In this document: positions 19,625 to 56,044 of the stretch, one piece after another
Numbering within the stretch: the first letter of the stretch is position 1
Layout of the letters: each line of letters opens with the position of its first letter
Source of the DNA: Thioalkalivibrio sp. AKL19
GTDB lineage: Bacteria > Pseudomonadota > Gammaproteobacteria > Ectothiorhodospirales > Ectothiorhodospiraceae
NCBI RefSeq assembly: GCF_000420165.1
Contig: NZ_ATUK01000012.1
Location: 248,001 to 312,000, forward strand
Reading direction: 5' to 3'
DNA: 64,000 nt
Position numbers and translations under genes: made by a program
Notes under the pieces: generated by a model
What the model was told of the DNA's origin: nothing
Seen by the model: the letters and a program-made list of their open reading frames with translations, nothing else
Databases searched by the model: none

Positions 19625-19801
19625 CCCGTCATTGCGAGGAGTGCAGCGACGAAGCACAAAAGCAGCGAAGCTGCGTTGAACGGCCGCAGGCCGGCCCGAA
19701 GGGCGAGCGGAGCGAGTACCCCCCCACGCTGGCAAAGCGCTGGGATCAGGTGGCCGAGCACATCGATTGCCACGTCGCCTGCGGCGACTCGCAATGACGG
19801 G
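19625..19801. repeat. 177-bp MITE-like repeat with 14-bp terminal inverted repeats
   Basis: The left end CCCGTCATTGCGAG (19625-19638) is the exact reverse complement of the right end CTCGCAATGACGGG (19788-19801). The interior holds further inverted segments (GAAGC-type and CGTCGCCTGCGGCGAC) and no coding sequence. Repeats with CGTCATTGCGAG ends occur in several unrelated bacterial genomes; that statement is from memory. It sits between convergent nadB and the reductase gene. Confidence 0.75.
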
Positions 19802-55278: not shown

Positions 55279-55626
55279 GGTGACTCCTCTCCTTTTGGTT
55301 TCTTCTGCATTCAGGCGTATTCGACCCGTTCAATCCGGTCTCTGCGAAATTGGACGGGAAAAGGGCGCGAGAATTCCCTGCATTCCCCGATCCCGGCCAA
55401 GGGATTGTAGCGGAGGCGGGGCGGGATTGAGCGAGGGCCTGATGCCGGGACCGGGTCCATCACGAACGGGGGAAGGAAGCGGGTCGAAAGCCGCCTCCTC
55501 CGGTAATCGATGAGGCTGGGGGAAACATCGCCATCCACGGGCCACAACGGACTGGCCCGGGAATTGTGCCCCAGGTGGGTGCCCGCTCATGCGAGATGCG
55601 GGTGCATCGCGGGGCGCGCACGGCTT

Positions 55627-55799
55627 GGGGGACCAGGATGATTCGGCAGCTGCGCCGCCTCACCCCTTCGGGGCTGCACGCGCGCCGCGCGTGCAGTGCT
55701 CCGCTGCGCTCCGCCGAACCTTCCAGGTTCGAACCCTGGGCCCGCTCAAATATCCATAGAAAAGGGCCCCCTATATATAGGGGGCCCTTTTCTATGGAT
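55627..55799 (-). repeat. tRNA-Gln-linked tandem repeat unit 2 (distal)
   Basis: This unit begins with a degenerate copy of the tRNA-Gln 3' end (GGGGGACCAGGAT, read on the plus strand near 55632) and ends with a palindrome. A second T-arm-like segment (CCAGGTTCGAACCC) lies inside. It aligns with unit 1 over its length at a spacing of about 172 bp. On the minus strand it lies downstream of the tRNA. Confidence 0.72.
55752..55799. terminator. 48-bp perfect palindrome (terminator-like)
   Basis: Bases 55752-55775 are the exact reverse complement of 55776-55799. Its arms contain GAAAAGGGCCCCC and GGGGGCCCTTTTC, so the hairpin is followed by a T run in both directions and would terminate transcription both ways. 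The centre is TATATATA. It is the distal repeat's counterpart of the tRNA-Gln terminator. Confidence 0.8.
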
Positions 55800-55970
55800 G
55801 GCTGGGGGACCAGGATTACTCGGCGCTATGCGCCTCGCCCTTCGGGCCAGCGCCGCAAACGGCGCTGTTCGGCTCGGCTACGCCTCACCGTCGAACCTTG
55901 CAGGTTCTCATCCTGAGATCTTCCAACGATTCATGAAAAAAGGCCCCACAAGGGGGCCTTCCTCCATAAA
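55800..55970 (-). repeat. tRNA-Gln-linked tandem repeat unit 1 (proximal)
   Basis: Immediately downstream of the tRNA (minus strand). Its far end repeats the tRNA 3' end (GGCTGGGGGACCAGGATT, 55801-55818 on the plus strand), followed by ACTCGGCG in place of CGAACCTGG. Homology with unit 2 includes TCGGC, TTCGGG, CGAACCTT and CAGGTTC blocks in the same order. Confidence 0.72.
55935..55960 (-). terminator. Intrinsic terminator of tRNA-Gln
   Basis: On the minus strand AAGGCCCC (55960-55953) pairs with GGGGCCTT (55947-55940), followed by a T-rich run (complement of A7 at 55935-55941). It begins 11 bp beyond the tRNA 3' end. Confidence 0.87.
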
Positions 55971-56044
55971 TGGCTGGGGGACCAGGATTCGAACCTGGGT
56001 TGACGGAGTCAGAGTCCGTAGTCCTACCGCTAGACGATCCCCCA
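55971..56044 (-). tRNA. tRNA-Gln (anticodon CTG)
   Basis: A 74-nt tRNA including encoded CCA (complement of TGG at 55971-55973). The acceptor stem is TGGGGGA/TCCCCCA with the U1-A72 pair typical of tRNA-Gln and discriminator G73. The anticodon stem ACGGA/TCCGT encloses CTCTGAC, giving CTG. The T arm holds GGTTCGAATCC. It lies 40 bp downstream of rpsI on the same strand. Confidence 0.96.

Follow-up and report, generated by a model that had tools for sequence, protein, structure and literature searches.

A tRNA-linked repeat array behind tRNA-Gln in Thioalkalivibrio sp. AKL19 contains a hairpin module that also occurs in REP-like palindromes

The 178-bp repeat at the tyrT locus of Escherichia coli was reported in 1978, and its origin and function are still without an accepted answer (PMC8144298). 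Repeats of this type are already known to recur at many tRNAs in E. coli, where they are named tRNA-linked repeats (TLRs) and number 22, at ten places, with function unknown (PMC8144298, citing Egan & Landy 1978 and Rudd 1999). An early claim of a tyrT phenotype was retracted, and merely modest phenotypes have been described (PMC8144298). Sequences resembling rtT have also been noted among enterobacterial BIMEs (PMC2965389), and RtT is annotated in the genus Thioalkalivibrio (PMC8092127). Apart from the remark in PMC2965389, no statement of the repeat core as a discrete insert, of interrupted tRNAs or of a link between REP sequences and tRNAs was found in the open-licence literature.

The array described here is a further example of this established class (TLR/RtT). 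It lies in a window of 64,000 nucleotides, the whole stretch of Thioalkalivibrio sp. AKL19 DNA that was analysed, and consists of two tandem units behind tRNA-Gln, present where the original prediction had placed them (Table 1). Unit 1 lies directly 3' of tRNA-Gln on the same strand, and its parts run in the order terminator-like hairpin, 5' arm, GGTTCGA, hairpin module and copy of the tRNA 3' end. When compared with the Rfam RtT model (RF00391), for which the gathering score is 45 bits, unit 1 gave 58.5 bits (E 1e-10) in a match that spans the entire model and takes in the tRNA-end copy, and is therefore RtT by the Rfam threshold, as the name rtT-like had implied; unit 2, at 30.9 bits, falls below the gathering score. 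TLRs are recognised by a final 18–19 bp that equal the 3' end of the gene. The last 17 nt of tRNA-Gln, TCCTGGTCCCCCAGCCA, which include the encoded CCA, are repeated in the tail of unit 1 at 17 of 17 positions and in that of unit 2 at just 14. Copies of the tRNA 3' end had been expected at the start of each unit; the copies are real, but tRNA-Gln is encoded on the minus strand, so that a copy closes each unit when the array is read in the direction of transcription. Alignment of the two units gives 128 identities in 165 positions. Without the final 20 nt, 110 of 146 positions are still identical (75%), 10.5 standard deviations over shuffles, so that similarity beyond the tRNA-derived 20 bases, on which the original prediction had been made to depend, is present.

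Table 1. Features of the tRNA-Gln array and of related loci (^ marks a junction; G000 is the window's genome)
Feature	Position	Strand	Evidence and remarks
Host gene tRNA-Gln(CTG)	55971..56044	minus	T-loop TTCGAATCC, CCA encoded; ARAGORN; Rfam RF00005 61.4 bits
Unit 1, 172 bp	55799..55970	minus	RF00391 RtT match at 55934-55799
Intrinsic-terminator-like hairpin AAGGCCCCCTTGTGGGGCCTTTTTT, between tRNA and unit 1 core	55936..55960	minus	spotted by eye, absent from consensus-scan matches
5' arm of unit 1, CAGGAT	55910..55915	minus	complementary to ATCCTG in tRNA-end copy; closing stem in Rfam RtT structure
GGTTCGA (5' half of T-arm), abuts left side of module	55891..55897	minus	sequence
Hairpin module of unit 1, 74 nt	55817..55890	minus	model R2; four mini-hairpins, end ...GAGTA
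Copy of tRNA-Gln 3' end in unit 1, ATCCTGGTCCCCCAGCCA, directly after module	55799..55816	minus	17/17 over last 17 nt
Unit 2, degenerate, 177 bp	55622..55798	minus	RtT score under cut-off
Perfect 48-bp palindrome with A- and T-tracts, junction of units 1 and 2	55752..55799	no strand	inverted-repeat search; terminator-like on both strands (bidirectional)
Hairpin module of unit 2	55640..55713	minus	sequence; end ...GAATC
Second, imperfect copy of tRNA-Gln 3' end (unit 2)	55622..55639	minus	14/17
REP-like composite, inverted ends CCCGTCATTGCGAG..CTCGCAATGACGGG, no tRNA link	19625..19801	plus	sequence; missing at orthologous site in G002
Module in that composite, ..GACGAAGCA^CAAAAGC..GAGTA^	19657..19718	plus	R2 44.5 bits, E 1.8e-8
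PF01797 (Y1-type) transposase genes	G000:C13:300643, C10:428455, C10:313198, C10:175683, C18:107981		
Split tRNA-Gln(TTG) copies	L095 1441-1944; also L075, L076, L079, L115, L125, L128, L131		
Photorhabdus caribbeanensis tRNA-Lys(TTT) arrays	L222 5169-6500; G231:C21:86265-88738		63-64 nt hairpin module in T-loop

The plan of a unit carrying a copy of its host's 3' end is general across gammaproteobacterial tRNAs and extends to E. coli 5S rRNA; its recurrence behind many tRNAs of the same genome and of relatives agrees with what had been predicted. A second array in the window's genome follows tRNA-Ser(CGA) and has two 184-bp units with RtT scores of 56 and tails that match at 17/17. A survey of all 42 tRNAs of this genome gave further units at Arg-ACG, Arg-CCG and Ser-GCT. 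Units are thus present at 5 of the 15 tRNAs with the T-loop TTCGAATCC and at none of the 27 others (hypergeometric p ~0.0035, hand-computed), and the fact that all five hosts carry this T-loop suits a GA^ATCC target, in one genome. Within the family, RtT matches were obtained in 30 of 47 genomes; the loci examined in relatives lie behind Gln-CTG, Gln-TTG, all four Ser types and Tyr, with tails mostly 17/17, and in about 30 related genomes a 17/17 tail copy is carried by nearly all units behind Gln, Ser and Tyr tRNAs. The search with RF00391 over the whole class used strict filters and gives an undercount. A pattern scan of named genomes returned at least 118 stretches, with Thioalkalivibrio among the matches listed. 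Among those listed that have an upstream tRNA, the tail usually copies that tRNA at 19/19, and hosts among the matches listed are Arg, Lys, Tyr, Ser, Glu, Gln, Pro, Asp, Thr, Val and Asn across the Gammaproteobacteria, a list biased to such T-loops because the pattern demanded AATCC; the unbiased test of host choice is the survey of the window's own genome.

Direct repeats of a tRNA 3' end are a classic mark of tRNA-targeting islands, and on this general ground they would fit serial, integrase-mediated integration at the tRNA 3' end, with the units as attR-like remnants, one of the two mechanisms offered in the original prediction. Such an origin is hardly credible at this locus. No integrase ORF was found among those read in 53.8-57.4 kb, and the array has a metallo-beta-lactamase-fold hydrolase gene and rpsI/rplM as neighbours. 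With the T-arm divided by the module, no full att site is left, and the identical core, one conserved module at all hosts, is found at many different tRNAs.

Copying of the host end can also be followed at the 5S rRNA loci of E. coli. In strain E69 the order is 5S gene, terminator 1, module, copy of the 5S 3' end and terminator 2, as seen in the window. At the locus where the gene ends in CCAGACAT the copy also reads CCAGACAT, and the other rrn loci have CCAGGCAT in both gene and copy; a local 5S variant is thus repeated in its own copy, which means that the copy tracks its own host. All 10 of the E. coli module loci examined lie behind Tyr, Pro, Arg or Lys tRNAs or 5S (two further matches were left out). 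Between the paired rrn terminators of E. coli (L331, L334 and L328) lie a module and a 5S 3'-end copy with the local variant.

The earlier reading of the letters missed that the core of the units is a separable module, which is also found in REP-like repeats. From 5' to 3', a unit is made up of a terminator, an arm (often GGATTCGAACC or similar), GGTTCGA, the module and ATCC...NCCA, with the module of about 65–80 nt comprising four mini-hairpins on the scaffold GAAC-hairpin-GGCCCGNAGGGCGAG-hairpin-CGAGTA. A model of the module, R2, was trained on 30 tRNA-linked modules only, with their flanks removed. It matched unit 1 at 55817-55891 with 67.3 bits, a sequence that had belonged to its training set. 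Searches with R2 also returned REP-borne modules in the window's genome (E 1.8e-8 to 1e-4), a module in a REP-like palindrome of the Rhodanobacteraceae (51.8 bits, E 2.7e-10) and the modules behind E. coli 5S (33.6-34.1 bits, E 6e-6).

The ends of the R2 matches coincide with the breakpoints between filled and empty sites (A^..GAGTA^A). In the window's genome, one REP-like 29-mer can be found empty, reading A^ATCTCC or A^ACCTCC (L337, L335), and filled, reading A^module^A(T/C)CTCC (L338, L316); with its left flank, the pair is GACGAAGCA^ATCTCC (L337) versus GACGAAGCA^module^A(T/C)CTCC (L338, L316). At a Rhodanobacteraceae locus (L242), CCGGA^ATCCAG and CCGGA^module^ATCCAG are both present. At the site orthologous to 19625-19801, the REP carries the module in G000 and G009, is present without it in G001 and is lacking in G002; the module-free REP of G001 could be an independent insertion. 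The ends of the module are alike in tRNA and REP settings. The TLR core is therefore a separable module with fixed ends, shared by tRNA T-arms, duplicated 5S ends and two kinds of REP-like palindrome. A REP or BIME is a short palindrome dispersed in many copies outside genes; the tRNA-linked units are tied to tRNA genes, and of their parts the module alone also occurs dispersed, within REP-like repeats.

These copies bear on plain replication slippage, by which the tRNA 3' end, terminator and spacer would have been duplicated in tandem, the shared core reflecting common trailer ancestry and no separate module. Tandem units do have a near-constant length, with up to 3 in a row and some 100% identical, but the same core, bounded in the same way, follows unrelated tRNAs and 5S rRNA and is also found within REP-like repeats that have empty sites; this makes the explanation improbable, and the REP copies already disfavour it. 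Slippage between tRNA 3'-end repeats, the other mechanism that had been proposed, does suit the tandem multiplication of units, given their variable number and near-identical neighbours.

We consider it somewhat better than an even chance (roughly 0.55) that the array arose from partial duplicates of the gene 3' end and terminator, which were interrupted by the module and then multiplied and homogenised. An upstream tRNA 3' end plus its terminator would have been duplicated in part, and a module of ~65–80 nt set between TTCGA and ATCC. The module would be mobile now, or have been so once, through some presumed enzyme, and would prefer A^A junctions such as GA^ATCC. Behind tRNA and 5S genes the module may be tolerated because it leaves the functional gene and the first terminator intact. 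Arrays would lengthen or shorten by slippage between the tRNA-end repeats, and slippage plus gene conversion could keep the copies gene-like. Any RNA from the units would probably stem from terminator read-through and, on the model put forward for RrB in E. coli, be cut at the tRNA-end copy by 3'-end processing of the host gene; it would mainly be a by-product. For RrB, the repeated end has been proposed as an RNase E recognition site (PMC8144298), which is compatible with a by-product.

Other routes to the same arrangement were considered. A long target-site duplication, comprising gene end and terminator and made in one insertion, would explain how the parts are ordered, but sequence of the gene is also found left of the module (GGTTCGA; GAGTAGGA in 5S), and a partial copy interrupted by the module therefore fits better. 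For a RAYT transposase as mobiliser no link was found in the flanks read: the window's genome has five PF01797 genes, and four of them were seen to have neither a module nor matching REP copies beside them. A broader claim is possible and is put forward tentatively, namely that all TLR cores, including E. coli rtT and the rrnB T1-T2 sequence, are mobile hairpin DNA with defined ends that inserts at A^A, with the conserved tRNA T-loop sequence GGTTCGA^ATCC, duplicated 5S ends and REP palindromes as targets and the 'sRNAs' as by-products of a parasite.

Removal of module-like inserts between GGTTCGA and ATCC gave ARAGORN tRNA calls at several loci. In several relatives, the real gene has upstream of it copies of tRNA-Gln(TTG) that are split at TTCGA^ATCC and are mis-called as tRNAs by ARAGORN. 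Two tRNA-Lys(TTT) arrays were seen in Photorhabdus caribbeanensis; both contain two intact genes and, after them, split copies (7 complete ones in one array and 14 in the other, plus one truncated per array). Split whole tRNAs were set aside as proof of insertion, since deletion between the GGTTCGA repeats of gene and downstream unit yields the same product. At another locus (L226, ~215-385), the 5' part of tRNA-Gln(TTG) is followed by a module and a tRNA-Ser-like tail, a chimera that suggests a deletion between two loci.

A further alternative concerns RNA. The units may encode functional small RNAs of the RtT/RrB type, freed at the tRNA-end copy and acting in trans, through Hfq/CsrA binding as in E. 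coli, or in cis on tRNA processing. RrA, RrB and RrF arise when transcription runs through the terminator, and they bind both Hfq and CsrA (PMC8144298), RtT family RNAs appear on Northern blots in Actinobacillus (PMC4986893), and Thioalkalivibrio RtT is up-regulated in the cold (PMC8092127). Conservation of the tail also speaks for such RNAs: between species, at single-unit loci, tails are 99% identical whereas modules are 80% identical, which is difficult to obtain by slippage alone and points to a tail that is under selection or else corrected repeatedly from the gene. So does the closing stem, which matches the host tRNA at several hosts. At Gln, Tyr, Arg, Glu, Lys-TTT and Val, the 5' arm fits the tail of its own host more closely than it fits foreign tails, a match at six hosts that a pure DNA-parasite account does not predict and that counts against it. 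The same comparison fails at Ser, Pro, Thr and Lys-CTT, and a host-specific closing stem was rejected as a universal rule.

The stems of the module give a different picture. A structure kept as RNA should favour G-U pairs on the transcribed strand. Among 1264 stem pairs from 76 non-redundant modules, 6 are G-U and 6 A-C, compared with 19 G-U and 0 A-C among 504 tRNA stem pairs; the module is thus without a G-U excess, which, with these small counts, weakens the RNA reading. Its triloops are GNA in 106 of 145 cases, and GNA loops are unusually stable in DNA; just 10 of the 145 are GGA, the CsrA-like form. The module is also found in REP-like repeats distant from tRNA genes, RtT matches are not obtained in all genomes of the family, and the phenotypes reported for TLRs are modest, with no function known and the tyrT phenotype retracted (PMC8144298). 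Taken together with the evidence on the other side, functional small RNAs are rather unlikely as the explanation of the array.

The array itself is of a known class; what is new is the tie between the TLR core and REP-borne modules for which empty sites exist. With a module that is separable and whose sites occur both filled and empty, the old rtT puzzle becomes a testable question of mobile DNA, and the module links rtT, REP-type repeats and the double terminator of rrnB, which many vectors use. Compared with E. coli TLRs, including tyrT rtT (Rudd 1999; PMC8144298), the units here likewise lie behind a stable RNA gene, one to several in tandem, match the host gene 3' end over their last 18–19 bp and have no settled function. 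They differ in that the hosts are Gln, Ser and Arg, in another order of Gammaproteobacteria, and in that the module is common to REP-like repeats of the same genome. Unit 1 scores as RtT does in Rfam, above the gathering score that unit 2 fails to reach; Rfam classes RtT as a cis-regulatory RNA, to which the test of module stems gives no support. The dual terminators of E. coli rrnA, rrnB and rrnD, with RrA, RrB and RrF (PMC8144298), have their order of parts in common with the window array, but their host is 5S rRNA and not a tRNA. As for REP/BIME and dRS3-type palindromes, the module sits in the 3' arm of such repeats in this genome and in the Rhodanobacteraceae, whereas the tRNA-linked units are without REP inverted ends and are flanked by T-arm sequence.
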